Assembly: GCA_016783155.1 (NCBI GenBank)
Contig: JADHXB010000003.1
Span: 1 to 38,166, forward strand
DNA length: 38,166 nt
Source: Dehalococcoidia bacterium
GTDB taxonomy: Bacteria; Chloroflexota; Dehalococcoidia; GIF9; UBA5629
Direction of reading: 5' to 3'
The notes below the pieces were generated by a model. It ran no database searches. It saw only the letters and a list, made by a program, of their open reading frames with translations, and had not been told where the DNA came from. Every line of letters begins with the position of its first letter. Positions within the stretch are counted from its first letter, which is position 1. Position numbers and translations under genes: made by a program. Below are positions 18,458 to 38,150 of this stretch, piece after piece.

Positions 18458-20416
18458 TTACCATATGTTCTCTTCAGGGAAATCCATGTGTTGAACGAAG
18501 TATTGATTGAAGTCGTGGCGGTAGGAAAGCTCGACATGCTCCATGAAGTTGACCACGTCTTTTGCCATTTGCCAGTACTTCTTGGATAAAAGGACCATTG
18601 AGGCTCCCAGGCTGGCAGTGTTTCCTAACGACTTGATGAGCTTCACGTTAATCCCGGGGAGAAGGCCGATGCGCAAGGTGCTGATGGGGTCAATGTAATT
18701 CCCCAGCGCCCCAGCTAGATATACATGGCTGATATCCTCAAACCCAATGCCTAGTTCATCCATCAGTGTGTGCACACCGGCAGCTACAGCCCCTTTGGCA
18801 AGCTGAAGCTCGCGAACATCTTTTTGAGTAAGGTATATCGGTCGGCCATAGAAGCCTTCTTCTTCAGAGGCAATGAGAAAATCATAGCAGTATGACCGCT
18901 TAATCACTCTTGAATTTAAATCCTGATATTCTGCTTTTTGAGTTGGGCGAATCAAGCCTTCGGGGTCAATTACACCACAATGTAATAAAACTGCCACCAG
19001 GTCGACCAGTCCACTCCCGCATATACCTTTAGGCTTGATATTCCCGATTACACGATAATGCAATTGGCCCTCTTCGATTCTAACGCCTTCCAATGCACCC
19101 GCCTTGGCTATCATCCCGGAGGAGATTCGCGCTCCTTCCAGGGCAGGACCTGCAGCCGCTGAACATGTCAAAAGCCTTTTGCCATTGCCTAGGAATATCT
19201 CCACATTGGTACCAAGGTCCAGTCCAAGTATGACTTCATCTTTTTGTTCAGCAATGCCCGAGTTGAGCACAAAGCTAATCAGATCCCCGCCAATATAGCC
19301 AGATTTCGTGGGCATAGTATAAAGCAAGGCTGATAGATTCAATTCGAGTCCAACATCTGCCGCATTCACAATCAATCCATCAGTTACCGCAGGTATAAAT
19401 GGCGCTTCGGCTATTCCATGGGGGGGTAGGTTCAACAGAAAGTGCTGCATGGTGGTGTTTCCTGCGGCAACAGCAATGAGGATATCCTCTTTCTTGAGTC
19501 CAGCAGTTTTGAGAAGGTGCTTGGTTATGTTGTTAAGATCGTTGACAAGGAGATTGTGCAAAAAGTCCAGACCTCTGGGATTCTGTTTAACGTAGTTGAG
19601 GCGGCTGATTACGTCTGAGCCGTGCCATCTCTGCCTATTGAGGCAGGAGTCGACAGCAGCCTCACTGCCATTTGACAAGTTGATTAGTTTACCCACAATG
19701 GTGCTGGTGCCGAGGTCAAAGACCAAGCCATATCCGTGTTTTGATTTCTCCGGCTCTTGCCACGCAATCAAAGAGTTATTATGGAGTACAGCCACCCCAC
19801 TGAACTTAGTCTTCTTCAACATCTGGGGTAGTGTGCGAAGACAGTGAATCGAGGCTTGCAGGTCGCTGTATTCGGCGCCCAGCCCCATCCTCACCCAGTT
19901 TAAATCTGATATCTTGCCATTTTGTGATTCAGTGGGCAAGGTTACAGGTCGTCTCTCAATAAGTGGCTCAAGCTGCGAAATTGGAATATATCTACTACGG
20001 AGAACATGGCTGGTGGTTAGAATCTTGAGATAGTCCAGCTCTGTGTCTGTCTTCTCTGTTGAGATAGCCAAATCTCGCTTTGCTTTGGTACGGCAGGCAA
20101 GACGGATACCCTGTTCCAGTTCGACTTTATCAAGTAGCCCCTTCTCCGCGCTGGTTGGTGGGCCAACGACTGAAAGAATCTTGATTTTACATTTGCCGCA
20201 GTTGCCTATTCCACCGCAATCGCTATCCAGCTCCATGTCCGCCTTATACAGTGCTGCCCATAAAGTCTCCCCATACTCAGCTGGCACCCAGATATCCTTA
20301 GGGTATACATGCAGCCAGATGCGCCTCGGCCTGCGTTCTTTTTGCGGACGCGGTTTTCTCGCCTGCTTGTTCCCCTTATGTGTAGGGGGTTGGATATTTT
20401 TAGCGTTAGCTACCAT
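18458..20416 (-). CDS. RACo-type reductive activator of corrinoid proteins (2Fe-2S ferredoxin + ASKHA/DUF4445)
   Basis: CGGIGNCGKCKIKI ferredoxin motif; GLVFDLGTSTIVGKL, GLDLGTNVEIFLG, ACRTKAKRDL, CGSGLVDLVAVLL. Confidence 0.92.
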   Translation of the reverse strand: MVANAKNIQPPTHKGNKQARKPRPQKERRPRRIWLHVYPKDIWVPAEYGETLWAALYKADMELDSDCGGIGNCGKCKIKILSVVGPPTSAEKGLLDKVELEQGIRLACRTKAKRDLAISTEKTDTELDYLKILTTSHVLRSRYIPISQLEPLIERRPVTLPTESQNGKISDLNWVRMGLGAEYSDLQASIHCLRTLPQMLKKTKFSGVAVLHNNSLIAWQEPEKSKHGYGLVFDLGTSTIVGKLINLSNGSEAAVDSCLNRQRWHGSDVISRLNYVKQNPRGLDFLHNLLVNDLNNITKHLLKTAGLKKEDILIAVAAGNTTMQHFLLNLPPHGIAEAPFIPAVTDGLIVNAADVGLELNLSALLYTMPTKSGYIGGDLISFVLNSGIAEQKDEVILGLDLGTNVEIFLGNGKRLLTCSAAAGPALEGARISSGMIAKAGALEGVRIEEGQLHYRVIGNIKPKGICGSGLVDLVAVLLHCGVIDPEGLIRPTQKAEYQDLNSRVIKRSYCYDFLIASEEEGFYGRPIYLTQKDVRELQLAKGAVAAGVHTLMDELGIGFEDISHVYLAGALGNYIDPISTLRIGLLPGINVKLIKSLGNTASLGASMVLLSKKYWQMAKDVVNFMEHVELSYRHDFNQYFVQHMDFPEENIW

Positions 20417-21021
20417 GCATCACCCTTGAGCAATTCAGTAAGTGTCTTTTCAATATGGGAATAATCCGCATCTTGAATCTCCAGGGATAACCCTAGTAAT
20501 TGGGCCAGTTCGTTGGCTCTGGGTACAAGGTTCTTGTCTGAAGGCTGGCGTATATAGAGCAGCTTCTTGTAGTGTTCAAAACATTGCCGTCGCATTTCCT
20601 CATCCTGGAGCTCCAGGGGGCCCATGCAGAAATCTTCGAAGTTGATAATCAGCCCCTCCTCCAAAAAGTAGGTTCCCGTTGTCTCATCAATGAGCTGCTT
20701 GAACCGCTCGCTGCCGAGAAGCATTTCGTAGCAGTAAGAGCCGGGCACCTTGATAATCCGGTGCCGTTTGCAGAAGCCATCTATGTCCGGAAAACACTCT
20801 CCGTAGAGGCATATTATCCGTTCACCTTTTGCTTGGGCTCTGCTTACCTCACGTTGCAGGCATTTCTTTAACTCCGCGGGTTTAAGATGCAATCTGGCTG
20901 GCAAATAGGTCAAACGCATATTGTGATACTTTTTCTTCAGTTGAAGATGTTCAATTGCCAGCATAAACACGGCGCAAGCGATGATATTGGTGATTCCTTC
21001 TGTTTTATCCGATGTTGTCAT
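20410..21021 (-). CDS. DUF1638 protein
   Basis: IACAVFMLAIEHL...LPARLHLKPAELKKCLQ...IICLYGECFPDIDGFC; typical neighbour of MttB/corrinoid genes. Confidence 0.8.
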   Translation of the reverse strand: MTTSDKTEGITNIIACAVFMLAIEHLQLKKKYHNMRLTYLPARLHLKPAELKKCLQREVSRAQAKGERIICLYGECFPDIDGFCKRHRIIKVPGSYCYEMLLGSERFKQLIDETTGTYFLEEGLIINFEDFCMGPLELQDEEMRRQCFEHYKKLLYIRQPSDKNLVPRANELAQLLGLSLEIQDADYSHIEKTLTELLKGDAW

Positions 21022-21022
21022 T

Positions 21023-22468
21023 TCAGATATTCCGTATTTCAGGAAAAGCCTTTCTTACCTCCAGGAGCAAATCCGGGTCTAAAAGACCCTCCTCGACCTC
21101 CTCACGTTCTGTCAGAATATTATGAACCAGGTCGTTGGCACGGCTCAACATGGTGGGACGCCCTCGTTCCTCCCAGATATCAAAGTTACAGCGCACACTT
21201 AAGGCAGGGTAGAAAAATTCCTCCATCATATGCTCAACAGTATGTTCTTCCATAACATAATTTCCGCCGGGACCAGCTTGCTCTATTACATCTAAGCTGA
21301 GAGTGTCTTTGTTCACCCTAATGCCGGAAAGCACTCTGTATACCATCCCAATGATTTCGTTGTCTATAGTATATTGTTCATAAGAAATGGAATTGCCTGA
21401 ATCCAGCATTCCAGCTGCCAGGAGAATGCAATCTGCTCCGGCCATAGCAACCATCAGGTTGGAAAAACTCTTCTCAACGCCTGATTGAATGTCAGGTCTT
21501 TTAGCCTCGGTGACTCCTGCAGAGGCACGAATAGGCAAGTTATAGAGCTTTGCCAACTGGACTGCAGAAGCACCCATCATGCCCATTTCTGTTGAGCCCA
21601 TGGCAAACTCAATGTTCCGTAAATCCATAGTGGCGGGCACGGCACCGTAAAGCACCTTGGCTCCAGGGGAGAACACCTGTGTGATAGCTACTCCTGCCAG
21701 CGCTTCAGCATGCATCTGGGCGAGGGTACCTGCCAAGGTAGCTGGCGAAGTGGCTCCAGCTATAGGTGCCGACGCGCAGGTTACGGGAATACCATGTGTA
21801 GCACAGAAACTGAGAATGTTGGCGGCGTTAGGCCCGATGGTGAGTGGGCTTACCGGGTTGGTGATCACAGAAAAGAAGGGCTTTTCTCTGAGTCTTTCTT
21901 CCCCACCAGCGATTAAACTGGCTAGTTTCCAGACTTGCCTTACTCCTTCCAGATTATCGCAGCCTCCCATCACGTGCTTGGTAGTATTGTTGAAAGCGTT
22001 ACAGAAGTCGTTCAAATGATAATGTTGCGGTTCCACGTCATGTGCCTGGCACGCGATGACATAGAATCGAATATGTTCCAGGTGATTCACCAGCATGGCA
22101 GTGCGAGCTATGTCTCTCAGCATGGTGAGGCGGTAACCGCCATTCGCTATATCGAGAATGCGAAATACCCGCCCCCCATTAGCGAAGTGGACTTCACCTT
22201 CCCCCAGGGACAGATCATTCTTTTCGTCTCTGGAATACAGGGTAAACTGGGATGGGGCACGACTGAGAAGCTTATCAAGCCATTCCTCTTTAAAACGCAG
22301 TCTCTGATTATGGTGATTTACCTGTGCTCCTGCCTTCTTCAACTTGTCGAGGATAGCGTCATCTTTGATTCTTATACCGATGCGCTCCAGTATCTGACGG
22401 CTTGTCTGGTCAATTCTTCTTACATCTGCGGGTGTAAGCGGTTTGAAAACTGGTAAGCTCCTTCCCAT
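21023..22468 (-). CDS. MttB-superfamily corrinoid methyltransferase, non-pyrrolysine (paralog 1)
   Basis: FNNTTKHVMGG, CASAPIAGATSPATLAGTLAQMHAEALAGV, full-length ORF without amber. Confidence 0.93.
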   Translation of the reverse strand: MGRSLPVFKPLTPADVRRIDQTSRQILERIGIRIKDDAILDKLKKAGAQVNHHNQRLRFKEEWLDKLLSRAPSQFTLYSRDEKNDLSLGEGEVHFANGGRVFRILDIANGGYRLTMLRDIARTAMLVNHLEHIRFYVIACQAHDVEPQHYHLNDFCNAFNNTTKHVMGGCDNLEGVRQVWKLASLIAGGEERLREKPFFSVITNPVSPLTIGPNAANILSFCATHGIPVTCASAPIAGATSPATLAGTLAQMHAEALAGVAITQVFSPGAKVLYGAVPATMDLRNIEFAMGSTEMGMMGASAVQLAKLYNLPIRASAGVTEAKRPDIQSGVEKSFSNLMVAMAGADCILLAAGMLDSGNSISYEQYTIDNEIIGMVYRVLSGIRVNKDTLSLDVIEQAGPGGNYVMEEHTVEHMMEEFFYPALSVRCNFDIWEERGRPTMLSRANDLVHNILTEREEVEEGLLDPDLLLEVRKAFPEIRNI

Positions 22469-22482
22469 ATTTGAACTTCCCG

Positions 22483-23931
22483 TCAGTGCGGTTGGAGGAT
22501 TTGCTCGATTCCTTTGAGCACTTCAGTGGACTTGGGTTCTACTTGATGTTCCGACAGGATTCTCTTGGCCTCGATGTTGCAGTGCTTATAGAGGTCGGAA
22601 GACCCCGATTCCTCCCAGGAATCGTAGCGGAAACGATCCAGAAGCTTCGGCAAAAACTGAGCTTGCATGAAGTGTTCAAAGGTATGGTCGTCCATTAAGA
22701 AAATGGAACCGGGGGCACCAGTTGCTATCCTCTCTATGGCTTCCAGAGCCAAGGTTTCCTCATTGACTGTAATACCGTCGGTAAAGAAACGGCTCATGGC
22801 GATTAGTTCATTGGCCATAGTCACCATCTCAAGGGAGGAGGTGCTCCCATATTCAAGGAAACCCACATCGTGGATTAAATTAGCCCGGGAAAGCATGGCG
22901 GTGACAATGGAGAACATAGCCTCAGCCCCTGCTTGAGCATCCATTACTTTTGCATCGGAGGCTCCAGCATAAGCCCAGATGGGCAGGCCATAGAGTTCAT
23001 CGCGCATGTCGGCAAGAGCCGCCTGCGTCAGGCTCCATTCGGGGCACCCGTACGACACGATAGTTGATTTCATGTCCAGAGTACTGACATTGGGGCCAAA
23101 CAGGAAGGGAGAACCTTTGCCAACAAGTTGGTGTACCACCAATCCTACCAAATTCTCGGCTATTCCCAGAGCCATTGCTCCGGCAAGTGTGACCGGTGCT
23201 CCGCCTCCGGCATTAGATCCAGAGGGGAGGCAGATGGGTATCCTCTTTTCGGCACAGAAAATGAGCCTGTCCATAACGTTTTCAGGAAAGCGCAGTGGGC
23301 TGATGGCTTCTGAATAATTGAGGATAAATGGTTTTTTCTGCAGCGCTTCTTCGCCCCCCACCACTTGGCAGGCAATCTGGTATATTTTAGCGATGTCTCT
23401 ACCACTATCCGCGATAAACACAATCGGTTTATTGGTATTTTTTACCATCTCAGCAAAAACATGGACGTAGATATCTTCGATAGGAGCATCTGCTGGATTT
23501 GACATGGACATGGCAAAATCCATGTTTTCCAGCCCATCGACGAGCTTGGCAAAATTGGCGGCATCTTTTAGGGTAGATCTGCGGCGCTCGCCTGTCTCAA
23601 CGTCAACAGTAAAAGTAGCGTCTGAACCAGTACCATAGAAATAGTTGCCGTTAACCAGAGGCATGGTTTTGTTACCCTTCTGGTCATAGAGGTCAATCTG
23701 CCTGGGAGCTGAACTCAATGCATCTTCAACGAGCTTGGCAGGAATCCTAACCCAACCTTGGTCGCTGACCTTGCAGCCAGCACTGACTAGTGTTCCCAGC
23801 GCACCCGGGTGTTCCATCTTGACCCCTGTCTTTTCCAGGATTTCTAAAGCAGCATTATGGATTGCCAGTATCTGCTCACGATTTAGCACTTTCAGCCGGG
23901 GGCGAAAGGTTGGAACCTCCGTGGGTTTCAT
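22483..23931 (-). CDS. MttB-superfamily corrinoid methyltransferase, non-pyrrolysine (paralog 2)
   Basis: SGSNAGGGAPVTLAGAMALGIAENLVGLV, YAGASDAKVMDAQAGAEAMFSIV. Confidence 0.92.
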   Translation of the reverse strand: MKPTEVPTFRPRLKVLNREQILAIHNAALEILEKTGVKMEHPGALGTLVSAGCKVSDQGWVRIPAKLVEDALSSAPRQIDLYDQKGNKTMPLVNGNYFYGTGSDATFTVDVETGERRRSTLKDAANFAKLVDGLENMDFAMSMSNPADAPIEDIYVHVFAEMVKNTNKPIVFIADSGRDIAKIYQIACQVVGGEEALQKKPFILNYSEAISPLRFPENVMDRLIFCAEKRIPICLPSGSNAGGGAPVTLAGAMALGIAENLVGLVVHQLVGKGSPFLFGPNVSTLDMKSTIVSYGCPEWSLTQAALADMRDELYGLPIWAYAGASDAKVMDAQAGAEAMFSIVTAMLSRANLIHDVGFLEYGSTSSLEMVTMANELIAMSRFFTDGITVNEETLALEAIERIATGAPGSIFLMDDHTFEHFMQAQFLPKLLDRFRYDSWEESGSSDLYKHCNIEAKRILSEHQVEPKSTEVLKGIEQILQPH

Positions 23932-23956
23932 AGTTCACCTCTTCATTGATATATTC

Positions 23957-24601
23957 TCAGGAGATACCAAGCAGTGCTTTGGCTTTATTCACGGCGGAAC
24001 CTGCGTCGGATGCATATGAGTCCGCATTTATCTGCTGTGCGTATTTTTCGGTAACAGGAGCGCCACCAATCATTACCTTAGCTTTATCTCTTAGCCCGGC
24101 TTTCTGCAGTGCCTCGATGGTCTGAGCCATGGCTGGCATAGTGGTGGAGAGTAACGCAGACAAAGCGATTATATCTGGTTTTACCTCTCTTGTCTTCTCC
24201 ACAAACTTCTCAGGGGATACGTCCACTCCCATATCTGTTATAGTGAATCCTGCACCCTCCAACATCATTGAAACCAGGTTCTTGCCGATGTCATGCAGGT
24301 CTCCCTTGACCGTCCCAATCAGCACCTTTCCCTTGGAGAGGACATCACCTTCCTGGAAGAACGGCTGGAGCAATTTAGTGCACTCTTGCATGGTCTTGGC
24401 GGAGCGTAGCATCTGCGGAACAAACAGGAGCCCCTTGGAAAATTTATCGCCCACCTCGTTCATAGCAGTAATGAGTCCCTTATTGAGAATCTCCTCAGCG
24501 CTGCTGCCGGCATCTAGAGCTTTCTGGGCTTCCACCAGAGCCGTCTTGGTATCTCCCTTATTCACAGCTTCAGATAGTGCCTTAAAGTCGCTCATCTTCA
24601 A
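23957..24601 (-). CDS. Corrinoid (B12-binding) methyl-carrier protein 1
   Basis: GDLHDIGKNLVSMMLEGAGF (DxHxxG) ... VMIGGAPVTEKYAQQINADSYASDAG. Confidence 0.95.
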   Translation of the reverse strand: MKMSDFKALSEAVNKGDTKTALVEAQKALDAGSSAEEILNKGLITAMNEVGDKFSKGLLFVPQMLRSAKTMQECTKLLQPFFQEGDVLSKGKVLIGTVKGDLHDIGKNLVSMMLEGAGFTITDMGVDVSPEKFVEKTREVKPDIIALSALLSTTMPAMAQTIEALQKAGLRDKAKVMIGGAPVTEKYAQQINADSYASDAGSAVNKAKALLGIS

Positions 24602-24698
24602 CCTCCTTTCGCTTGTTTTGGGGTTATTGATTGTTTGTTTAACACAGTTGGCCCTACGATGTCATAACCATCGACTGACGAATTATCAACCGTTGTGC

Positions 24699-25493
24699 TC
24701 ATGCAAGGCGGCCATTTTGATAGGCCTCAATATAGTTTCCACAGTATTCATCCCGGCCAAGAAGCATCTCCACCGTAATCAGGGTTGTCATCAGTTCCTT
24801 ATCAGTCGGGTCCAAAATTACAGCGGACAGACCGTAGGAAATGCACAGAGCCAGAAAGTTGCGATTTATTATGCGACGTTCCGGTAGACCGAAGGAGACG
24901 TTGGAAAGGCCACAGATGGTATTCACGCCCGGGAAATCGTGCATGATTTTCCTGATAGCTCCGAGTGCAGCTAGTCCCATGTTAACATCTACGGAGATAG
25001 GTTGTATCAGAGGGTCCACATAAATCATCTCGAGGGGAGTGCCTGCATCGGTAAGCTTTTTGATAAGTTTCGAACTTACCGCCACCCTTTCTTCCACGGT
25101 GGTAGGCATAGATGTTTGGGACATACAGAGTGCGACCACGTGGCAGGGTTGAGCGGAGATTACGGGAAGAAGGGATTGGAGCCGGTCTTCCTCAAGTGAA
25201 ATGGAATTGATCATCGGCACGCCTTGGTGGTGCTTTATCGCTTCGGCCAGGGCATTTGGGTTGGGACTATCCAGCGCCAGAGGTATGTCAATTTCACTCT
25301 GCACTGTCTCAACCAGCCAGCTTAGGCAATCTGCCTCTTTGTCCAAAAAGGTCCCGGCGTTGACGTCAATATAATGAGCACCAGCTTCGGCCTGCTCGCG
25401 AGCTATTCTGATGATGAATGAGGCATCACGATTCTTGACAGCCTCTTCGATGCTCTTCCGGCTGGTATTTATTTTCTCTCCTACGATTATCAC
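24699..25493 (-). CDS. Pterin-binding (methyl-THF) methyltransferase 1
   Basis: MIIVGEKINTSRKSI...GAHYIDVNAGTF...LALDSPNPNALAEAI...GLSNVSFGLPERRIINRNFL. Confidence 0.92.
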   Translation of the reverse strand: MIIVGEKINTSRKSIEEAVKNRDASFIIRIAREQAEAGAHYIDVNAGTFLDKEADCLSWLVETVQSEIDIPLALDSPNPNALAEAIKHHQGVPMINSISLEEDRLQSLLPVISAQPCHVVALCMSQTSMPTTVEERVAVSSKLIKKLTDAGTPLEMIYVDPLIQPISVDVNMGLAALGAIRKIMHDFPGVNTICGLSNVSFGLPERRIINRNFLALCISYGLSAVILDPTDKELMTTLITVEMLLGRDEYCGNYIEAYQNGRLA

Positions 25494-26637: not shown

Positions 26638-26767
26638 GTGAATCACACCCCCTTAACTCCACCTGGTTTCGCCCCACCGCTTTTGCGCGGTTTATCTTGC
26701 ACCTGACGCAATTCACCTGGTGGCAATTTGTCTGATGGCATCGACTTTGATTTGTTGGATGGACAAC

Positions 26768-27451
26768 ATGAGCACTAGAACCTCAACTGCGGAAGTAGAA
26801 ATTGAGGTAGACAAACGACATGTTTTGCGCCGTATCGGCTACAAAGATGATTGTGAGCCATCACCTCGAATTGCGACCTTAATCACCGAGTACGCTCAAC
26901 TCGCACAACAACTTATAAAACCATCATATTCGTATGTTATTAGAAATGTTGACATGGTGCGAAAAAGGGATGTGTTTATTGGAGACCTAGTCATGTTCCG
27001 AAGTCATGTCATTGCACGACTCTTGGAACAATGTCAGCAAGTTGGGGCTTTTCTAGTAACAATAGGCGATGAACTTGAGAAAAAGACGACTTCTCTGGCT
27101 GATGATGGGCTTATACTCGAGTCCTATGCGCTGGATGTAATAGGGTCGAGCGCTGTTGAAAAAATAGCTGAACTGGTAGAGACTGAAATAAGAAAAATGG
27201 TCTCCGCCCAGGGGTTTTGTATCAGCCGGCGTTTCAGCCCGGGTTACTGCGATTGGAGCATAAGGCAGCAGAAAGAGCTTTTTCGCATGATTGATGGTGG
27301 CTCAGTAGGGGTCCGGTTAACCACGGGATATCTAATGATGCCACAGAAGTCGATATCCGGTATTGTCGGCGTCGGCCCTTCGTGCGTAGATATAGAGACC
27401 TACAACCCCTGTAGAACCTGCAACAAACGCAATTGCTTAGGAAGGAGGTAG
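26768..27451 (+). CDS. MetH activation-domain-like (vitamin B12-dependent methionine synthase activation domain) protein
   Basis: FCISRRFSPGYCDWSIRQQKELFRMI and C-terminal NPCRTCNKRNCLGRR; ORF extends to 26720 but internal ATG at 26768 is plausible. Confidence 0.85.
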   Translation: MSTRTSTAEVEIEVDKRHVLRRIGYKDDCEPSPRIATLITEYAQLAQQLIKPSYSYVIRNVDMVRKRDVFIGDLVMFRSHVIARLLEQCQQVGAFLVTIGDELEKKTTSLADDGLILESYALDVIGSSAVEKIAELVETEIRKMVSAQGFCISRRFSPGYCDWSIRQQKELFRMIDGGSVGVRLTTGYLMMPQKSISGIVGVGPSCVDIETYNPCRTCNKRNCLGRR

Positions 27452-27462
27452 AGCATAGGCAC

Positions 27463-28902
27463 ATGATTCGAAGAGGATTACCCGGGGGTAGCTTTAAGCC
27501 TCTTACCGACGAGGCTATCTCCATGGTGCACCAGACTGCCATGCGGATCATAGAAGAGGTAGGATTCGAAGTAAATTCAAAGACTGCGCTTGACCTCTTT
27601 GAGCAAGCTGGGGCTCGGGTTGACCGAGAAATGCGGCGGGTACGCTTGCCTGAGAATAGGGTCATGGAACTCATTAGCACAGCGCCTTCCGAAATCACGC
27701 TCTGTGGACAGCATGAGAAACATGATATTACTTTGGGAGATCAGCGAGTGTATGCGGGTACAGGAGGCACTGCACTCTACATTTATCATCCGGATACGGA
27801 CACGAAGCGAGCTGCCACACTCGAAGACCTCAGAAGCATCGCTAAACTGGTTGACGGCCTTGATAACATCCATTTTTTCCTGCTGCCAACCTATCCCACC
27901 GAGCTTTCATTGGACTGTGTTGACGTCAATCGCTTCTTCACTGGCATGGACAATACAACTAAGCATGTCATGGGAGGCGTTTATACGGTCGACGGAGTTA
28001 AACAGGTTATAAGGATGGCAGAGATCATCGCAGGCTCTGCAGAAAAGCTCAGGGAACGCCCTCTTATCTCCATGATAACCTGTAGCATAAGCCCTCTTAA
28101 GGTGGACAGTACCTACGGTGATCTATTGTTGACCATCGCCAGGAGCGGTGTGCCTCTGGCGTGTCCAGCGGAACCATTATGTGGGGCAACGTCACCTGTT
28201 ACACTTGCGGGGAACCTGGCAATCCAGACTGTGGACTCTATGATGGGCGTAATGCTTACGCAAGTCGTAAACCCAGGAACCCCGGTTATGCTCGGCTCCG
28301 TGGCCACCAATACCGACCTCACTGACCTGAAATACCTTGCTGGGTCAATTGAGATGGGGTTACTCAATGCAGCCGGCGCCCAGATGGCACAGTTCTACAA
28401 GCTTCCCTTCTACGCCACAGCTGGTATGACCGACTCGAAGACACTGGATGCTCAGAGTGGTTATGAGTCTGCCCTTACTAATCTGCTTTGTGCACTGTCT
28501 GGCGCCAATTTCATTCACGATGCTGCAGGGTTAATGGAATTCGCCATGACAGTATGCTACGAGAAGTATGTAATAGACAATGAGATACTGGGAATGGTCA
28601 TGAGGGCAGTCGAAGGTATAAAAGTCAACGAAGACACACTGGCCTTTGATCTCATCAAGCAAGTCGGGCCCGGAGGCAATTTCATCGCTGCCAAACATAC
28701 CAGACGTTTTATGCGCAATGAGCACTATCAACCTTCCCTTAGCGACAGGCACAGCAGGGAAGAATGGGAAACCAAGGGAAGAAAAAGCACGTGGGAAAGG
28801 GCATCGGAACAAGTGAAAGAGATCATCGCAGCGCATAAGCATAGCTTGCCTGCAGAGGTAAGGAGCCGGGTGCTGGCAGAAATTAAGGGGATCGTGGAGT
28901 AG
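27463..28902 (+). CDS. MttB-superfamily corrinoid methyltransferase, non-pyrrolysine (paralog 3)
   Basis: MDNTTKHVMGGVYTVDGVKQV, LCGATSPVTLAGNLAIQTVDSMMGV; ORF given from 27433. Confidence 0.93.
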   Translation: MIRRGLPGGSFKPLTDEAISMVHQTAMRIIEEVGFEVNSKTALDLFEQAGARVDREMRRVRLPENRVMELISTAPSEITLCGQHEKHDITLGDQRVYAGTGGTALYIYHPDTDTKRAATLEDLRSIAKLVDGLDNIHFFLLPTYPTELSLDCVDVNRFFTGMDNTTKHVMGGVYTVDGVKQVIRMAEIIAGSAEKLRERPLISMITCSISPLKVDSTYGDLLLTIARSGVPLACPAEPLCGATSPVTLAGNLAIQTVDSMMGVMLTQVVNPGTPVMLGSVATNTDLTDLKYLAGSIEMGLLNAAGAQMAQFYKLPFYATAGMTDSKTLDAQSGYESALTNLLCALSGANFIHDAAGLMEFAMTVCYEKYVIDNEILGMVMRAVEGIKVNEDTLAFDLIKQVGPGGNFIAAKHTRRFMRNEHYQPSLSDRHSREEWETKGRKSTWERASEQVKEIIAAHKHSLPAEVRSRVLAEIKGIVE

Positions 28903-28905
28903 AAT

Positions 28906-29715
28906 ATGCTGATAATAGGCGAGTGTATCAACGCATCAAATCGGACGGTTGCCGAGGCAATCGCCAGAAGAGATAGAGAATTTATCGAGGGTATTACAAA
29001 GACTCAGGTTGAAGCCGGAGCCGATTTTATAGACGTGAATGTCGGTGCCGGACAGGGCACTCAGGGGCAGGCGATAGAGGGTATGGAGTGGCTGGTAAAG
29101 ACAGTCCAAGCAGTTACGGACAAGCCGCTTACCATCGATAGTGACGTCCCTGGCATCATTGAAGCTGCTCTGCGCAGCTACCGTGGCGAAACGGTAATGA
29201 TCAACTCAGTTACTGCAGAGCCTGAGAGGCTGGAATCCATCGGGCCTTTAGCAGCTAGACACAAGGCATTGTTGGTGGCACTGGCCATGGGCTCCGAGGG
29301 CATACCAGATACGGTCGAGCGGCGATTGGAGACCTGTGAAACAATACTGACACGCTTGACCAGCATGGGCATGTCGGCAGAACAGATATACTTCGATCCC
29401 CTGGTGTTGCCTATATCCGTAGATTCCAGGCAAGGCCTGGTAACACTGAAGACGATAGAGCGGATAAAGGCTCGCTACCCTGCCGCAAAGACGGTAATGG
29501 GACTGAGCAACATATCTTTCGGCTTGCCCAGTAGAAAGCTGGTGAACCGTGCCTTTCTGCTGATGGCAGCCTATGCCGGTCTCGATGCCGCAATCCTTGA
29601 CCCGCGGGATGACAAGGCTATGAGTTTGGTCAGAATAAGTGACATGCTAATAGGCAAAGATGCGTTATGCAAAGGTTATATAAAGGCCTACAGGCAGGGC
29701 AAAATAGTTGACTAG
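28906..29715 (+). CDS. Pterin-binding (methyl-THF) methyltransferase 2
   Basis: MLIIGECINASNRTV...GADFIDVNVGAGQ...PLTIDSDVPGIIEAAL...GLSNISFGLPSRKLVNRAFL. Confidence 0.93.
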   Translation: MLIIGECINASNRTVAEAIARRDREFIEGITKTQVEAGADFIDVNVGAGQGTQGQAIEGMEWLVKTVQAVTDKPLTIDSDVPGIIEAALRSYRGETVMINSVTAEPERLESIGPLAARHKALLVALAMGSEGIPDTVERRLETCETILTRLTSMGMSAEQIYFDPLVLPISVDSRQGLVTLKTIERIKARYPAAKTVMGLSNISFGLPSRKLVNRAFLLMAAYAGLDAAILDPRDDKAMSLVRISDMLIGKDALCKGYIKAYRQGKIVD

Positions 29716-29768: not shown

Positions 29769-30461
29769 ATGGCAGATGACATATTAAAGCTAATTCAAGA
29801 GAATGTCATCCAGGGAAGAATTACCAAGGACGACGAGGGCTTCGACGACGGAATGGCTGGCCAGCCTGGAGTCACCGAGCTTATTGAGACGGCGCTGGCT
29901 CAGAAGATAAATCCCCAAGACATAATTAGCAAGGGACTTACCAGGGGCATGGCAATTGTGGGCGAGAAATTCGAGGCCAAGCAGTATTTCATCCCGGACA
30001 TGTTGGCATCTGCTCAAGTAGTTGGAGCAGCTATGGATATTTTAGAGCCTCACCTGGCCGGGGCTGGGGCCAAAGCTAAGGGTAAGATAATCATGGCTAC
30101 CGTGAAGGGAGACCTACACGACATTGGCAAGAACATAGTGTCGATACTGCTCCGAGGTGCAGGCTATACAGTGAAGGACCTGGGAAACGATATCGATACA
30201 TCGACTATTGTGGAGGCAGTTCGAGAAGAAAAACCTCAGTTTCTGGGGTTGTCGGCGCTGCTCATCAGCACCATGGCAAACATGGCAGACGTCATGCAGG
30301 CCCTCAAAGATGCCGGATTAAGAGACAAGGTGAAGGTAGTCATAGGCGGAGCTCCCGTCTCAGAGGAATTCGCCAAAAGCATAGGCGCCGATGGTTATGG
30401 CGCAGATGGATTTGGTGCAATCAGGGTGGTGGAATCGTTATTCAACGCTAATGCAGCTTGA
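29769..30461 (+). CDS. Corrinoid methyl-carrier protein 2
   Basis: GDLHDIGKNIVSILLRGAGYTVKDLG; VVIGGAPVSEEFAKSIGADGYGADG. Confidence 0.95.
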   Translation: MADDILKLIQENVIQGRITKDDEGFDDGMAGQPGVTELIETALAQKINPQDIISKGLTRGMAIVGEKFEAKQYFIPDMLASAQVVGAAMDILEPHLAGAGAKAKGKIIMATVKGDLHDIGKNIVSILLRGAGYTVKDLGNDIDTSTIVEAVREEKPQFLGLSALLISTMANMADVMQALKDAGLRDKVKVVIGGAPVSEEFAKSIGADGYGADGFGAIRVVESLFNANAA

Positions 30462-30531: not shown

Positions 30532-32073
30532 ATGCCCAGAGAAGGAATATTGGTGCGCACGCCCTATGAAAGGATTACCGATGAGCAGGTCCAGCAAATT
30601 CACCACGCTTCCATGGAGATTTTGAAGGACCCTGGCCTAATATCTTTCAATAAAGAGGCAGCGGAGATATTTCACAGCAATGGTGCAGATGTTACAACGG
30701 TTTCCTCCGGAAACAACCCCTGCTGGCTAGTAAGAATACCAGAAGAACTCGTCCTCAGTGCGGTGGACAGCGCAAATAAGACAGTCAAGCTGGGTGCACG
30801 GAACCTAGAAAATATCCTGATAATGAAAGGAGACGAGCCACGGGTATTCTTTATTACCGGCTCTGAAACGAATACTTGGCTGGACGTTGATTTCCAAACC
30901 TACGTTAGAAAATCCGAGCCTGCTACTGAGATTAGGGTGCCTGAGTTCCATCCACGACGCGGAACAGTTGCTGACCTGTGCAAGTCAGCCCATGTCTGTG
31001 AGCATCTGCAGACTGTGGATGGCTACATTCGCACTGTAAATATCCAGGACAAAGACATTACAGAAGATAATAAAGACGTCAATAAGTTCTTTGCCTCTTT
31101 GAATAATACCACCAAGCATGTTATGTCAGGACTGACCAGCCTGAAACAACTGGACAACGTTGTGAGGATGGCGGAGTTGATAGTGGGAGGCAAAGAGCAA
31201 CTCAAGGAAAACCCCATCATTTCCTTTATTACCTGTTTGGTAAAAAGCCCTCTACAGTTCGTTGAGGATACAACAGATACTTTTATTGAGGTTTGCCGAA
31301 GAGGCTTGCCTGTGGTGGTTTCATCGTCACCTCAAGCTGGTACCAGTGCTCCCATCAAGGAAGCCGGTATTATGGCTCAAATAAATGCCGAGGTATTGGC
31401 TGGCATAACGCTGAGCCAACTGGTAAATAAGGGGACACCGGTCCTTTACGGGAGCGTGCCGGTGAGAGCACGGATGGACACCCTTGGCGATTCATACGGT
31501 TCTGTTGAAACTAGCCAGTACAACATCGATTGCGTTCAAATGGCAAGGTTCTACAAGATACCAAACTACTCTACGTCAGGAGTTTGCGATGCCAAGGTAC
31601 CGGGACAGCAATCGTCTATAGAGAGGCTGTTCTCAGATTTAGTCGTCACTTTGAGCGGACCACAGTTTCTGCATTGTGCCTACGGCCTCCTTGACTGCAA
31701 TGCCATCTTCTGCCTGCTCCAAGCCGTCTTGGATGATGCCCACTTCCAGATGATCAAATTCTTCCTAAAGCCAGCGCTAATTGGTGAAAAGGAGATTGCC
31801 GAGACCCTGAAGCAGATAAGAGAAGTGGTCGCAACGCCTCAGAAGATGTACATTCGCCACATTCGCTCCGTGATGCGCAGCGGAGAGATCTCATCACCTT
31901 ATCCTTTTGAAGGGGATCTGGCAAACGATAATGTGTTCGCACTAGCCTACGAGAGGATGAATGAGCTTCTGGCAAAGCCTGTAGAACATATAGATTCGGT
32001 TACAACTTCTAAGATATTCCAGGAGATTCCCGGCTTATTGCCCAGGCTAAACGTGTATGAAGAAAGGAGATAG
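30532..32073 (+). CDS. MttB-superfamily methyltransferase, divergent (paralog 4)
   Basis: LNNTTKHVMSGLTSLKQLDNVVRMAELIVGGKEQL, SPQAGTSAPIKEAGIMAQINAEVLAGI; 513 aa, longer than the others. Confidence 0.9.
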   Translation: MPREGILVRTPYERITDEQVQQIHHASMEILKDPGLISFNKEAAEIFHSNGADVTTVSSGNNPCWLVRIPEELVLSAVDSANKTVKLGARNLENILIMKGDEPRVFFITGSETNTWLDVDFQTYVRKSEPATEIRVPEFHPRRGTVADLCKSAHVCEHLQTVDGYIRTVNIQDKDITEDNKDVNKFFASLNNTTKHVMSGLTSLKQLDNVVRMAELIVGGKEQLKENPIISFITCLVKSPLQFVEDTTDTFIEVCRRGLPVVVSSSPQAGTSAPIKEAGIMAQINAEVLAGITLSQLVNKGTPVLYGSVPVRARMDTLGDSYGSVETSQYNIDCVQMARFYKIPNYSTSGVCDAKVPGQQSSIERLFSDLVVTLSGPQFLHCAYGLLDCNAIFCLLQAVLDDAHFQMIKFFLKPALIGEKEIAETLKQIREVVATPQKMYIRHIRSVMRSGEISSPYPFEGDLANDNVFALAYERMNELLAKPVEHIDSVTTSKIFQEIPGLLPRLNVYEERR

Positions 32074-32075
32074 CA

Positions 32076-32768
32076 ATGAGTGAAGATATCATAGCCGCAC
32101 TTAAGGAAAATGTCATACAGGGAAGAAAGACAATTGCTGACGAAGGAATAGACGAAGCATTATCAGGAAAACCAGGAGTCGTGGAGTTGACGCAGTCAGC
32201 GCTGGATAACAACATTCCTCTGGAGACAATAATCGCCCAGGGCCTGACGGCAGGAATGCAGGTTGTGGGTGAGAAATTCGCCACCAAGGAATATTTTATC
32301 CCGGATATGCTGGCCTCTGCCGAAGCTGTAGGCGCAGCTATGGAAATACTGAAGCCACTTCTTGAGGCTTCAAATATAGAGACAAAGGGGAAATTTGTCA
32401 TAGCCACAGTAAAAGGGGATATTCACGATATAGGCAAGAATATCGTTGCTATCTTGCTCAAGGGCGCCGGATATGAAGTTGATGACCTGGGTGTAGATGT
32501 ACCTACGGAAAAGATTGTGGAGGTTGTCAGGGAATCGAAGCCACAGTTTTTAGGGCTTTCTGCCCTTCTGACCACCACCATGCTAGTCATGAAAGAAGTA
32601 GTCGAAGCATTGAAAAAAAGCGGAATCAGAGACAAGGTCAAGGTATTGATAGGAGGCGCAGCCGTTTCGGACGAATATGCCAGGGAAATAGGTGCTGACG
32701 CCTATTGCACTGATGGTTTTCATGCCATCAATGTACTCGATGCTTTTCAGAAATCAGGAGTGCAGTAA
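32076..32768 (+). CDS. Corrinoid methyl-carrier protein 3
   Basis: GDIHDIGKNIVAILLKGAGYEVDDLG; ENVIQGR N-terminus shared with corrinoid protein 2. Confidence 0.95.
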   Translation: MSEDIIAALKENVIQGRKTIADEGIDEALSGKPGVVELTQSALDNNIPLETIIAQGLTAGMQVVGEKFATKEYFIPDMLASAEAVGAAMEILKPLLEASNIETKGKFVIATVKGDIHDIGKNIVAILLKGAGYEVDDLGVDVPTEKIVEVVRESKPQFLGLSALLTTTMLVMKEVVEALKKSGIRDKVKVLIGGAAVSDEYAREIGADAYCTDGFHAINVLDAFQKSGVQ

Positions 32769-32801
32769 AGGCATTCTGACGTTTAGGAAAGGAGAGCAAT
32801 T

Positions 32802-34286
32802 ATGGCAGGAATCGCAGGAATCTTAGGGACTGACAATGGTGAGTTAGCTCAAATGCTTGACAAGATGAGGTATAGAGGTCCGCATGAGACTTGGACGAAC
32901 CGGGAACAGGGTGTAAACATCGGATGCCTTGAGCTGAATGTAGGAGGAGACGTAAAGCCAGTCTCGCACCATGCATCCGATGGCAAGAGAGATGTTACCC
33001 TTGATGGGCGTGTATATAATCCAGAGAAGGGCAGTATGTCTGACGCCGAGGCCGTGCTCCACTTGTATGATAAGTATGGCGTCGGATTTGCCAAGAAGCT
33101 GGATGGGGACTTTGCCTGTGCCATATCAGACGGGGGGCAGATGATTCTGGCTCGTGATTGGGTGGGTATAAAGCCTCTTTACTACGGGCACAGTGATGGC
33201 AGACTATGCTTTGCCTCAGAGGCAAAGGCTCTGGTAGGTATAGCTGATGATGTGAAGGAATTCCCACCAGGCTATGTTTACTCGTCGGAGCTGGGCTTCC
33301 AGAGATTTAAATCTGAAGCCGTAGAGACCCCTGAATTCGAGAACTATGAGCAGGGCAAGAAGGTAGTCCGTGAGCTTCTGATGGAAGCAGTGGAAAAGCG
33401 CATGAAAGATAATGCTGTGGGGGGAGTACTCCTAAGCGGCGGGTTAGACAGCAGTCTGATAATATATATGGCACACGAGATAAAAGCCGATATCGAGTGC
33501 TTTACCGTGAGCATGGAAGGGGGGCAGGACCTACCGCTGGCCAAGGACGTGACCAAGTACCTGGGCATCAAGCACCACATATTAATGTTCGGAGAAAAGG
33601 AGATTAAGGAGATATTGCCTCTAGCCATCCATCATCAGGAGATGTACGAAGAAAGCTGCGTTCATGGCGCCATAGCTAATTTTATCGCCGGACGTTTTGT
33701 CAGCCCGCATACCAAGTGCGTACTCACTGGTGAAGGGGCAGATGAGTTCTTCGCGGGGTATGATGGCCAGTTCAGACAGGGAAGTAACCCGGAGGAAGTC
33801 GCCAGCATAGTCGATAGGCTTATTAATGTTGCTCATAATACCGCCTTGCAGAGGCTGGACAGGCTGAATGCTGCAAATTCTTATGAGAGCCGCACCCCCT
33901 TCCTTGATTCCAAGGTGATGGATTTCAGTATGAAGATACCTATGAAACATAAAATTCACGGCGAAGAGCAAAGTGGAAAATGGATTGTACGGCAGGCTTT
34001 TGAGGGTTGCCTGCCTGAACATATCATCTATCAGACCAAGCGGTTCTTTGCCCAGGGTTCAGGAGTGGCCTATATCATGCGTGCGCAAGCTGAGAAGGAA
34101 ATATCCCAGAGCGAACTGGAGGAATTCAACAAGGTAGAGGGTCATCCATACCTGTCTTCAGTGGAAGAGTTATACTACTATAGAATCTTCAAAAAGACTT
34201 TCCCAAAGCCTGCATTTGATCGGCTGGTAGGCAGATGGGACCCATTGAGGCCAGCCTTCTTTCGTGAGCTAGAGAAGGCAGTCTAG
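32802..34286 (+). CDS. Asparagine-synthetase-like (AsnB family) amidotransferase with Cys2 replaced by Ala
   Basis: MAGIAGILGTDNG, YRGPHETW, VLLSGGLDSSLI, LTGEGADEFFAGYDGQF. Confidence 0.9.
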   Translation: MAGIAGILGTDNGELAQMLDKMRYRGPHETWTNREQGVNIGCLELNVGGDVKPVSHHASDGKRDVTLDGRVYNPEKGSMSDAEAVLHLYDKYGVGFAKKLDGDFACAISDGGQMILARDWVGIKPLYYGHSDGRLCFASEAKALVGIADDVKEFPPGYVYSSELGFQRFKSEAVETPEFENYEQGKKVVRELLMEAVEKRMKDNAVGGVLLSGGLDSSLIIYMAHEIKADIECFTVSMEGGQDLPLAKDVTKYLGIKHHILMFGEKEIKEILPLAIHHQEMYEESCVHGAIANFIAGRFVSPHTKCVLTGEGADEFFAGYDGQFRQGSNPEEVASIVDRLINVAHNTALQRLDRLNAANSYESRTPFLDSKVMDFSMKIPMKHKIHGEEQSGKWIVRQAFEGCLPEHIIYQTKRFFAQGSGVAYIMRAQAEKEISQSELEEFNKVEGHPYLSSVEELYYYRIFKKTFPKPAFDRLVGRWDPLRPAFFRELEKAV

Positions 34287-34376: not shown

Positions 34377-35225
34377 ATGAAATGGACTATCTTGGGCTCC
34401 GGGGGATGTGCTGTAATCCCCAAACCACTTTGCCAATGCCGGGTTTGTAGGGAAGCCAGGAAGAAAGGCGTTCCGTATGCCAGAGCAGGGCCTTCTGTTT
34501 TCCTGCATGATATCAACCTGCTAGTAGACACGCCGGCGGAGATTGTGAGTCTGCTTAACCGTTCACCTATCCGCCGTATAGATTACCTTACCTTCTCTCA
34601 TTTAGACCCTGATCATGTGGAAGGGTTTCGGGTAGTAGAGCAGATTGCGCTGGACTTTCGCACTTGGCGCGCCTATCCCCAGAAACAGATTTGTTTGCTG
34701 CTGCCTGAACAGCTAAGCGGAAGCGTGAGGAAACTAAGGTCTCAGTACGGTCCCATAGTCGATTTCTACCAGGAAAGCGGTTTTCTCAAGCTAAAGCTTT
34801 TTCATGACAAAATCCAGATCGGAGGCGTTAGGATCACCGCAATCCCTGTCGACCGTGGTTCCCAACTGGCCTTCGTTTATGTCTTTGAAAAGGCAGGCCG
34901 CAAGGTGGTTTATGCTCCCTGTGACATCAAGCCTTTTCCTGAACACAGAAATGAGGTTCAACAAGCCGATTTGTTGATTATTCAGCCGGGGATATTTGAG
35001 AAAGGACTGAAACATAGTTTCAGATACCCAGCCGAACATATCTCCAGAACAACCCTCTATACTTTTGAGCAGACCATGGATTTAGTGACACGCCTGCGAG
35101 CCAAGAAGGTTGTCTTTGTTCATTTGGAAGAATACTGGAACCGGAGCTATGACGACTATCGTGTCCTGGAGTCTAGGAACCGAAGAATATGCTTCGCCTA
35201 TGACGGCATGCAGCTAAGAGTGTAA
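34377..35225 (+). CDS. PhnP-like metallo-beta-lactamase-fold hydrolase
   Basis: ILGSGGCAVIPKPLCQCRVCREARKKG...RAGPSVFL...LTFSHLDPDHVEGF. Confidence 0.82.
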   Translation: MKWTILGSGGCAVIPKPLCQCRVCREARKKGVPYARAGPSVFLHDINLLVDTPAEIVSLLNRSPIRRIDYLTFSHLDPDHVEGFRVVEQIALDFRTWRAYPQKQICLLLPEQLSGSVRKLRSQYGPIVDFYQESGFLKLKLFHDKIQIGGVRITAIPVDRGSQLAFVYVFEKAGRKVVYAPCDIKPFPEHRNEVQQADLLIIQPGIFEKGLKHSFRYPAEHISRTTLYTFEQTMDLVTRLRAKKVVFVHLEEYWNRSYDDYRVLESRNRRICFAYDGMQLRV

Positions 35226-35317: not shown

Positions 35318-37126
35318 TCAACGGTAATATCTTCGGCGACCTATATAGATTATCAGAAGGTATATCAGAAAAGCAGTGACCAGTGAGCCTGCGACGATGA
35401 TGGCAATCAGTGCTCCGCTCATTGAATGACGTGGATTACTTGTCTCTTCCAGACTCGCCTTCTCCACGATGGTGAAGAATGACTTGTGGCCGTTGATCTC
35501 TACCGTGTACGTCCCCGGCTCGGATTTGACTACCTCGAATTCTAGGAGTATAGCCGCCTGCCTGTCGATGTTTCCCGACCTGGTCTGCTCAACCTCTCCA
35601 TTTACCTTCAATTCAAAGCTGTAGCTGCCTTCCGCGTAGTCCTGGTTAAACACGTTTGCTAGTATGGTCACCGGCTGGTTGGAGGTAGTTTGCTGTGGTT
35701 GCAAGTTTAACATTAGCACCAGAATCCTCGGCACCACGGTCCCCGGAGGAGCTGGTGCAGTTCGTCTTGGCAACGACTGTGTAGTAGGCAAGATAGTCTG
35801 GGTAAGCGGGCTTGAGGTACTGGTGTTGAAGTTGCCGTCGCCTCCGTATTCGGCGGTGATGGTATGCCTTCCCACTGACAGGTTGGAGGTGCTGAGGGTT
35901 GCCTGCCCTGAGGCAAGGGTTCCGGTACCCAGCGTTACCGCTCCCTCCTTGAAGGTAACGGTGCCGGATGGCATGCCTGCGCCAGGTAGTACCGCCGAAA
36001 CGGTGGCGGTGAAGGTGACCGATTGGCCGAACACCGAGGGATTCTGAGATGAGTTCAGGGCTGTGCTGGTATCTGCCTTGCCGACGGTCTGGGTGAGCGG
36101 GTTTGAGATGCTGGCGTTGAAGTTGCCGTCGCCTCCATATTCGGTGGTGATATTGTGGTTACCCACCGACAGGTCGGAGGTGGTGAAGGTTACCTGTCCA
36201 GAGGCATCGAGGGTGGCGGTATCAATTGTTACACCTCCATCCTTGAAGGTGACAGTGCCCGTGGGCGTACCTGTGCCTGGTGCTGCTGCCGAGACGGTGG
36301 CGGTGAAGGTGACCGGCTCGCCGTACACCGATGGATTGAGGTTGGAGTCCAGAGTTGTCGCGGTATCTGCCTTGTTGACGGTCTGGGTGAGGGGGCTTGA
36401 GGCGCTGGTGTTGAAGTTGCCGTCGCCTCCGTATTCGGCGGTAATGTTATGAACTCCCACCGACAGGTCGGAGGTGGTGAAAGTTGCCTGACCCGAGGCA
36501 AGTGTCCCTGTCCCCAGCGTCGTCGTTCCCTCCTTGAAGGTGGCAGTACCGGTGGATGTGCCTGCGCCGGGTAGTACTGCCGTGACCGTGGCGGTAAAGG
36601 TGACCGACTGTCCGTACACCGAGGGATTCTGAGATGAGCCCAGTGTTGTGCTGGTATCTGCCTTGTTAACGGTCTGGGTGAGTGGTGGGCTTGGGGCGCT
36701 GGTGTTGAAGTTGCCGTCTCCTTCATATTCGGCGGTGATATTATGGTCTCCTGCCGACAGGCTGGAGGTGGTGAAGGTTGCCTGACCCGCACCATTTAAA
36801 TTTCCGGTGCCTAGTGTTGCCGCTCCCTCCTTGAAGTTGACGGTACCGGTGGGCGTACCTGCGCCGGGTGCTACCGCCGAGACCGTGGCAGTGAAGTTGA
36901 CCGACTGGCCGTACACCGAGGGATTCTGAGATGAGACCAGGGCTGTGCTGGTATCTGCCTTGTTAACGGTCTGTGCAAGCGGGCTTAAGGGACTGAAGTT
37001 AAAGTTGCCGTCGCCTCCGTATTCGGCGGTGACGGTATGGTCTCCGATTGACAGGCTGGAGGTGGTTAAGGTCGCCTGACCTGAGGCATCGAGGGTTCTG
37101 GTGCCCAGCGATGTGGCTCCATCCAT
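35318..37126 (-). CDS. Ig-like-repeat surface protein, C-terminal portion (CARDB-like + TM anchor); downstream of a frameshift
   Basis: Repeats YGQSVTFTATVSAVxPGAGTPTGTVTFKEG...ITAEYGGDGNFNTS; C-terminal TM GALIAIIVAGSLVTAFLIYLLIIYIGRRRYYR. Confidence 0.88.
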   Translation of the reverse strand: MDGATSLGTRTLDASGQATLTTSSLSIGDHTVTAEYGGDGNFNFSPLSPLAQTVNKADTSTALVSSQNPSVYGQSVNFTATVSAVAPGAGTPTGTVNFKEGAATLGTGNLNGAGQATFTTSSLSAGDHNITAEYEGDGNFNTSAPSPPLTQTVNKADTSTTLGSSQNPSVYGQSVTFTATVTAVLPGAGTSTGTATFKEGTTTLGTGTLASGQATFTTSDLSVGVHNITAEYGGDGNFNTSASSPLTQTVNKADTATTLDSNLNPSVYGEPVTFTATVSAAAPGTGTPTGTVTFKDGGVTIDTATLDASGQVTFTTSDLSVGNHNITTEYGGDGNFNASISNPLTQTVGKADTSTALNSSQNPSVFGQSVTFTATVSAVLPGAGMPSGTVTFKEGAVTLGTGTLASGQATLSTSNLSVGRHTITAEYGGDGNFNTSTSSPLTQTILPTTQSLPRRTAPAPPGTVVPRILVLMLNLQPQQTTSNQPVTILANVFNQDYAEGSYSFELKVNGEVEQTRSGNIDRQAAILLEFEVVKSEPGTYTVEINGHKSFFTIVEKASLEETSNPRHSMSGALIAIIVAGSLVTAFLIYLLIIYIGRRRYYR

Positions 37127-38150
37127 GAAGGTGATGTTACCCGGTGGGTATGCCCGCGCCCGGTGCTACCGCTGAGACTGTAGCGGTGAAGGTGACCGAT
37201 TGGCCGTACAGCGAGGGGTTATGAGATGAGCCCAGGGCGGTGCTGGTATCTGCCTTGTTGACGGTCTGGGTGAGTGGTGGGCTTGAGGCGCTGGTGTTGA
37301 AGTTGCCGTCGCCTCCATATTCGGCGGTGATGTTATGAACTCCCACCGACAGGGTGGAGGTGGTGAACGTTGCCTGACCCGAGGCAAGGGCTCCGGCACT
37401 TATCTGTACCCCGCCATCCTTGAAGGTAACGGTTCCTGTGGGCGTGCCTGCGCCGGGTGGTACTGCTGAGACGGTAGCGGTGAAGGTTACCGACTGCCCG
37501 AACACTGAAGGGTTCTGAGACGAGACCAGATCTGTGATGGTATTTGCCTTGTTAACGGTCTGTGCAAGCGGGTTTAAGGGACTGAAGTTAAAGTTGCCGT
37601 CTCCTCCGTATTCTGCGGTTATGGTATGGTCTCCCACTGTCAGGTTGTCGATGGTTATACTCGCCTGACCTGAGGCATCTAGAGTTTTAGTGCCCAGCGT
37701 AGTGGCTCCGTCCATGAAGGTAACGTTGCCTGTTGGTGTACCTGCGCCGGGTGGTACTGCTGAGACGGTGGCGGTGAAGGTAACAGATTGGCCGTATACG
37801 GAAGGATTGGCGTCGGAAATCAGTGTTATGGTGGTATTTGCCGTGTTAACCGTATGTAGGGTTGGGACAACGGCGCTGGCGTAGTAATTGGAATCACCAC
37901 CATACGGTGCGCTTATAGTATGGTTACCCGCTGACAGGCTGGAGATGATTAAAGTTGCTTGAGCTGAGGCGTTGAGCGTCCTGGTACCCAGCGTTGCCGC
38001 TCCGTCCATGAAGGTAACCGTGCCGGTTGGTACTGGCGCGCATGGCTGTTGCCACGAGATGGTGGTGGTGAAGGTTACCGGCTGACCATATACCGAGGGG
38101 CTGGGAATGGCGTTCACCGTTGATGTGGTGAGGGGGCAGATATCCATGGC
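35790..38150 (-). repeat. Tandem ~285-bp Ig-like (Big_3-type) repeats, about 8 units
   Basis: Recurring gttgccgtcgcctccgtattcggcggtgat and cgagggattctgagatgag blocks at regular spacing. Confidence 0.9.

Follow-up and report, generated by a model that had tools for sequence, protein, structure and literature searches.

The gene under study lies in a methyltransferase operon on a 38,166-nucleotide stretch of a Dehalococcoidia bacterium (contig JADHXB010000003.1), denoted the window in the following. The operon and the relevant sites within its AsnB-like gene are arranged as follows:

26720..27451, + strand: MetH activation-domain-like protein
27433..28902, + strand: MttB3, MttB-superfamily methyltransferase
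28906..29715, + strand: MtvA-like methyltetrahydrofolate:corrinoid methyltransferase
29769..30461, + strand: corrinoid protein 2
30532..32073, + strand: MttB4, divergent MttB-superfamily methyltransferase without pyrrolysine
32076..32768, + strand: corrinoid protein 3 (MtgC/MtbC-like)
32784..32786, + strand: in-frame TAG, 5′ of the AsnB ATG
32802..34286, + strand: Cys2-less AsnB-like protein, 494 amino acids, the subject of this analysis
32805..32807, + strand: codon 2, Ala replacing the catalytic Cys
32931..32933, + strand: Glu44, replacing the glutamine-binding Arg (AsnB R49 / ASNS R48)
33003..33005, + strand: Asp68, replacing Asn74
33435..33455, + strand: SGGLDSS, pyrophosphate-binding motif, intact
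33648..33668, + strand: EESCVHG, rewritten acceptor-side segment at AsnB V321-A326 (holds T322, T323, R325)
33729..33746, + strand: GEGADE, intact; E348 of AsnB, acidic cluster E364/D367/E368 of ASNS
34038..34040, + strand: Lys413, equivalent of the catalytic K449 (ASNS K466), intact
34377..35225, + strand: MBL-fold hydrolase (PhnP/PqqB-like)

In relatives from the same taxonomic order the arrangement is fixed, running from the activation-domain protein through MttB3, MtvA, corrinoid protein 2, MttB4, corrinoid protein 3 and AsnB to the MBL protein. MttB4 belongs to a divergent clade of PF06253, with its last ~80 residues outside the Pfam profile match. The MBL protein displays an HxDxDH-type motif and a weak likeness to PhnP and "GPMC system" hydrolases, and its gene is kept 3′ of AsnB in 15 of the 42 loci with enough sequence, about one third.

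The window also harbors a second divergent mtt operon (18458-25493, − strand) with a RACo-type activase, a DUF1638 protein, two more MttB-superfamily proteins, a corrinoid protein and an MtvA-like methyltransferase, and with no AsnB; its counterpart adjoins the AsnB operon also in loci L031, L058 and L101. Two neighbouring ORFs of Big_3_5 Ig-like repeats at 35318-38147 (− strand), lying on the same strand ten bases apart, may represent a single gene for a surface protein, interrupted by a stop or frameshift.

Translation of the AsnB ORF yields the N-terminus MAGIAGILG. Read back from the ATG, the codons att, gca, aga, agg and gaa lead directly to the in-frame TAG, so that no ATG, GTG or TTG start is available further upstream; an AGGAG motif is located between TAG and ATG. 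Re-reading of the ORF thus confirmed the MAGI start and upstream stop recorded in the first-pass annotation, and the motifs SGGLDSS (residues 212-218) and GEGADEFFAGY (residues 310-320) as well as the position behind the MttB4-corrinoid 3 pair, with AsnB beginning 33 bp past the corrinoid gene, were found as it had described them. Both AsnB domains are recognised by Pfam (Asn_synthase, 4.5e-56; GATase_7, 1.8e-18), the latter indicating that the glutaminase domain fold is present. The match to NCBIfam AsnB PRK09431 (1.2e-102) reaches 344 bits, under the 499-bit cut-off, and that to TIGR01536 reaches 252 bits, under the curated cut-off of 267 bits.

The glutamine pocket of human ASNS is formed by Cys1, Arg48, Val52, Asn74, Gly75, Glu76 and Asp96 (PMC6748925). 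Alignment to solved structures and to the Cys2-intact copies of related genomes shows these positions of the window protein as Ala, Glu, Val, Asp, Gly, Arg and Asp, respectively; in addition, the glutamine domain is shortened, and some ten residues behind the GxxYN motif are absent. The N-terminal Cys, Arg48/49 and Asn74 by which class II (Ntn) amidotransferases are recognised are therefore all absent. The first-pass annotation had concluded from Cys2 alone that the glutaminase site is dead, and this extends to the entire clade: none of 58 distinct relatives has Cys at position 2 (51 carry Ala, 4 Ser and 3 Pro) or Arg at the R49 position, and all 58 have Asp in place of N74. All three residues are kept in each of the 22 Cys2-intact comparison rows. 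Close homologs with an intact Cys2, which would have pointed to a sequence error, were not found, as the relatives of 62-92% identity are all Cys2-less. A sequencing error or frameshift is ruled out by the loss being common to the 58 relatives and to the 92% identical copy in a genome of the same genus, and the distribution at position 2 likewise rules out for the clade another Ntn nucleophile (Ser or Thr in place of Cys).

In a tree of 87 AsnB-like proteins the 58 Cys2-less proteins are set apart by a branch with an SH-aLRT of 99, the exact root of the group being unsure in this quick tree with its long inner branches. The group is divided into types A to D, the window protein being of type A; one row labelled Cys2-less (L162) is the mis-parsed start of a Cys2-intact gene. 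Three further Cys2-less proteins (L115 2910-4397, L116 9490-11004 and L126 13597-15105, with Ser or Gly) stand outside the 58-member group. They have Asp at N74, keep R325 and are located near distant MttB4-like clusters, suggesting that loss of Cys2 near MttB4-like genes probably happened twice. For nine close pairs, dN/dS amounts to 0.05-0.28 in the N-terminal and 0.04-0.17 in the C-terminal domain, which indicates purifying selection maintaining both and rules out a pseudogene or a decaying N-terminal domain. In-frame stops in some relatives were considered as pyrrolysine codons; in L033 and L034, the cases compared with translations, the stop merely terminates a gene that is somewhat shorter. 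L035 carries a type B gene followed by an 86-residue remnant of type A.

Contrary to the glutamine pocket, the synthetase site is fully retained. SGGxDS, E348, the D and E of GEGADE (D367/E368 in human), R403 (human numbering) and K449 are invariant over the 58 relatives, and the window protein and its clade thus carry the SGGxDS, GEGxDE and K449 expected of AsnB-type AMP-forming synthetases. The acceptor side is different. The segment with T322, T323 and R325 is part of the AsnB synthetase site, and R325A in the bacterial enzyme blocks the synthetase step (PMC6342913). In the window protein these three residues are replaced by S-C-H, the segment reading EESCVHG in the window type and EDCISG in type B; R325 is retained in only one of the 58 relatives, and the Cys2-less clade has Ala or Gly in place of D384. 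The features of an aspartate acceptor site (T322/T323/R325, D384 and scores above the curated family cut-offs) are accordingly lacking in the window protein, and the changes at T322, R325 and D384 make aspartate an unlikely acceptor. E364, D367 and E368 of ASNS have been modelled as binding the substrate amino group (PMC6748925). Since this acidic cluster is kept while T322, R325 and D384 are rewritten, the acceptor is read as a carboxylate other than aspartate that bears a cationic nitrogen close to the acid group, probably a betaine- or amino-acid-like compound.

An AlphaFold2 model of the window protein, calculated with 45 homologs, has a mean pLDDT of 92.6. Foldseek places E. coli AsnB (1ct9) and human ASNS at the top (TM 0.83-0.86), followed by beta-lactam synthetase (TM 0.71-0.76) and then carbapenam synthetase, the two together spanning TM 0.70-0.76.

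When 84,980 species genomes were scanned with an alignment of MttB4, 80 named loci emerged, mostly from Dehalococcoidia; other contig labels are Deltaproteobacteria, Desulfobacteraceae, Syntrophaceae, Nitrospirota, Peptococcaceae and Methanophagales, with the proviso that organism labels on metagenome contigs may be wrong. In the 49 well-covered loci (MttB4 of at least 70% identity and at least 2.6 kb downstream) the Cys2-less AsnB adjoins MttB4 in 44, alone in 36 and together with a Cys2-intact AsnB in 8; four have the Cys2-intact form alone and one has neither. As loci found via MttB4 are biased to linkage, starting from AsnB across the whole class gives a fairer test, and 393 Dehalococcoidia genomes were searched from both sides. 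Cys2-less AsnB is present in 43 and MttB4 in 50 of these, 40 having both, so that the two stand alone in 3 and 10 genomes, respectively (Fisher p 1.2e-41, which overstates the case because the genomes are related). Among 78 rows, some of which are one genome in two collections and one of which (L122) is a non-member of the clade, 74 have the gene sharing its contig with mtt-cluster genes, from which it is nearly always less than 200 bp away and on the same strand. The co-occurrence that the first-pass annotation had proposed to look for is hence strong and recurrent, and these positions together with the 44 of 49 loci rule out a chance neighbour.

Three members of the branch were found apart from mttB genes. 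A type D gene (L138, 8218-9711) lies outside any mtt cluster, flanked by the genes of a glutamate-synthase-domain protein and an L-2-hydroxyglutarate-oxidase-like protein and with a glutamate-dehydrogenase gene in the same neighbourhood, and suggests that the branch may have other uses; the stretches around the Cys2-less AsnB of L147 and L166 carry no mtt gene.

The slot behind MttB4 is also found occupied by a second AsnB (with Cys2, RLSIVD and NGEIYN), about 35% identical to the window protein. It follows the Cys2-less copy in tandem in L051, L055, L056, L074, L077, L078, L086 and L090, and stands alone in L057, L079, L095, L112, L117 and L119; in the well-covered set it joins or replaces the Cys2-less form in 12 of 49 loci. 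Elsewhere a Cys2-intact AsnB is situated near glnA; the genome from which the window comes, 77% complete, yielded no such copy. Its presence in the slot, alone or in tandem, means that loss of Cys2 is not strictly required for the partnership with MttB4. The slot has held differing AsnB relatives, the loss of glutamine use marking one dominant branch rather than a rule of the pathway.

Genes around the clusters provide further context. An OpuAC/ProV-type glycine betaine ABC transporter is encoded in the clusters of L060, L063, L113, L115, L116, L118, L125, L136 and L158, and in L043 directly before a broken Cys2-less AsnB; in L033 acetyl-CoA synthase/CODH genes come after the corrinoid-AsnB pair. 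Together these fit a use of quaternary amines with the methyls entering the folate/acetyl-CoA route. L048, L055-L057, L092 (9226-9963) and L155 have an isochorismatase-family (amidohydrolase-like) gene within or adjacent to the cluster; its closest models are RutB and biuret amidohydrolase, far under their cut-offs. In more divergent MttB4 clusters the corrinoid gene is followed by a gene of a family of about 420 residues, c9 (L123 12358-13617 and 16 further ORFs; L107-L126), with an SAM-methyltransferase-like core. For c9, searches returned a borderline Pfam match only, no NCBIfam match and no PDB relative by sequence, and its structure model retrieves generic Rossmann methyltransferases only (TM ~0.3), giving no functional lead.

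Taken together, the observation of the first-pass annotation is real and its interpretation is partly supported. The reading we favor, with somewhat better than an even chance, is that the protein acts as a glutamine-independent, AMP-forming amide synthetase and as a dedicated partner of the MttB4/corrinoid-3 pair. A carboxylate would react with ATP to give an acyl-adenylate and PPi, and free ammonia or a small amine would then displace AMP to form the amide; the amidated compound would most likely be a substrate or product of MttB4. Such an activity is consistent with the loss of Cys2, R49 and N74 beside an ATP site invariant over 58 relatives, with purifying selection on both domains and with a predicted fold like that of AsnB (1ct9), and the partnership with 44 of 49 MttB4 loci and 40 of 43 AsnB-carrying genomes. 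The transporter genes in or near the cluster are in line with a betaine-like acid. ASNS takes ammonium directly (PMC6748925), and PMC6342913, with the titles it cites, describes Cys1 mutants of asparagine synthetase that have lost glutamine use and possess ammonia-dependent activity. The ammonia released by demethylation that had been proposed is not a natural nitrogen source, as MttB demethylation moves the methyl group and leaves the amine, freeing no ammonia. Against an amide synthetase it must be held that in known carboxylated MttB substrates the carboxylate serves as a handle (PMC12155760), which amidation would remove, that glutamine use is tolerated in those operons where a Cys2-intact AsnB fills the same slot, and that the cost of converting ATP to AMP is high for such anaerobes; L138, L147 and L166, without mttB on the contig, argue against a strict partnership.

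A narrower form of the amide-synthetase reading, to which we assign a rather low probability, is that a betaine-like substrate is amidated before its demethylation by MttB4. The precedent is MthK, which phosphorylates choline ahead of MthB action (PMC12155760). The fixed place of AsnB beside MttB4 and corrinoid protein 3 agrees with such a priming step, and the isochorismatase-family gene in or near some clusters could reverse the amide, although it is present in a minority of clusters and amidation would take away the very carboxylate kept by known MttB substrates. Because these substrates are thought to bind via the carboxylate, the amide may just as well be formed once demethylation is over, or on a different molecule. 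The complete module, in which AsnB would amidate a betaine-like acid, MttB4 would demethylate it and an amidohydrolase (e.g. the isochorismatase-family protein) would free the nitrogen, is put forward just as tentatively as priming itself.

Alternatively, the protein could be a condensing enzyme that works without ammonia, the adenylated carboxylate reacting with an amine that belongs either to the same molecule or to another, larger one; or it could dehydrate an amide. Beta-lactam synthetase and lasso cyclase relatives likewise have no working glutaminase, and in fold the beta-lactam and carbapenam synthetases rank next after AsnB and ASNS. However, AsnB and ASNS are closer in both sequence and fold, GEGADE and the acidic cluster are fully kept, and no peptide-precursor or secondary-metabolite genes were seen in the clusters, which renders this reading improbable. 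Beta-lactam synthetase has a Tyr (Tyr-Glu dyad) where AsnB has Glu; at this position Glu is invariant in the Cys2-less clade.

An ordinary ammonia-dependent asparagine synthetase that entered the operon by chance would account for the AsnB family membership and intact ATP site, and the Cys1 mutants of real enzymes (PMC6342913) still use ammonia. Yet the near-absence of R325 and the changes at T323 and D384 speak against it, the mttB linkage spans many families, and several carriers hold a Cys2-intact AsnB as well. Furthermore, GatB is present in 18 of 20 carrier genomes and an asparaginyl-tRNA synthetase above the curated cut-off in none of the 20; protein asparagine is therefore made on tRNA, and the Cys2-less AsnB is not needed for it. 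A housekeeping role is thus very unlikely, which in turn supports an amide synthetase of another kind. The same low probability is given to a non-catalytic helper, i.e. a scaffold or sensor in complex with the Cys2-intact copy or with MttB4 or the corrinoid protein: the eight tandem loci are compatible with it, but every ATP-site residue is invariant and most loci, the window included, have no adjoining Cys2-intact copy. Amidation of a corrin side chain or of a protein carboxylate, suggested by the position of AsnB directly 3′ of the corrinoid gene in most loci, is hardly credible, as type C genes are found at the end with the transporter and activase, the second mtt operon of the window contains corrinoid protein genes and no AsnB, and the corrin amidases CobB and CobQ belong to a family unrelated to AsnB.

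The MttB superfamily is very large, and six members had a known physiological substrate as of 2025 (PMC12155760). If true, the amidation-demethylation module would be the second known substrate preparation for an MttB-superfamily enzyme and the first via an amide. An ATP-using, glutamine-blind partner would offer a concrete way towards the substrate of an entire MttB clade from sediment and subsurface anaerobes, and the AsnB family would gain a natural glutaminase-dead branch with a rewritten acceptor site. The pairing is conserved in dozens of uncultured bacteria, which points to an as yet undescribed, ATP-driven step in methylated-amine use. The first-pass annotation knew of no MttB system with this partner, and in line with this a full-text literature search found no paper on the pairing, the nearest match being an unrelated-looking paper that names mttb, asparagine synthase and corrinoid once each.

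With the beta-lactam and carbapenam synthetases (1jgt, 1q15) the window protein shares kinship with AsnB, AMP-forming chemistry as predicted and the absence of a working glutaminase, while the fold and sequence match is lower and those enzymes reside in antibiotic clusters. The hydroxyamidotransferase TsnB9 (7ylz) is likewise an AsnB relative and, judging by its name, works with a nucleophilic nitrogen that is not simply ammonia from glutamine; unlike the window protein it starts with MCG and keeps the Cys, and the match is weaker. MttB4 matches the structures of the glycine betaine methyltransferase MtgB and the MttB superfamily (2qne, 9yce) and has corrinoid and MtvA-like partners as these do, but it represents a divergent clade, and for the known systems no AsnB partner is reported in the literature searched. 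The MthK-MthB choline system of Eubacterium limosum (PMC12155760) likewise sets an ATP-using enzyme beside MttB-superfamily, corrinoid and folate-methyltransferase genes; MthK, however, is a kinase unrelated to AsnB and its activity has been shown, whereas that of the window AsnB is predicted. With AsnB and ASNS (1ct9, 6gq3) the window protein has in common the two-domain architecture, the fold, SGGxDS, GEGxDE and K449, and it departs from them in being without Cys1, R49 and N74, in its rewritten T323/R325/D384 segment and in being locked to mttB genes.
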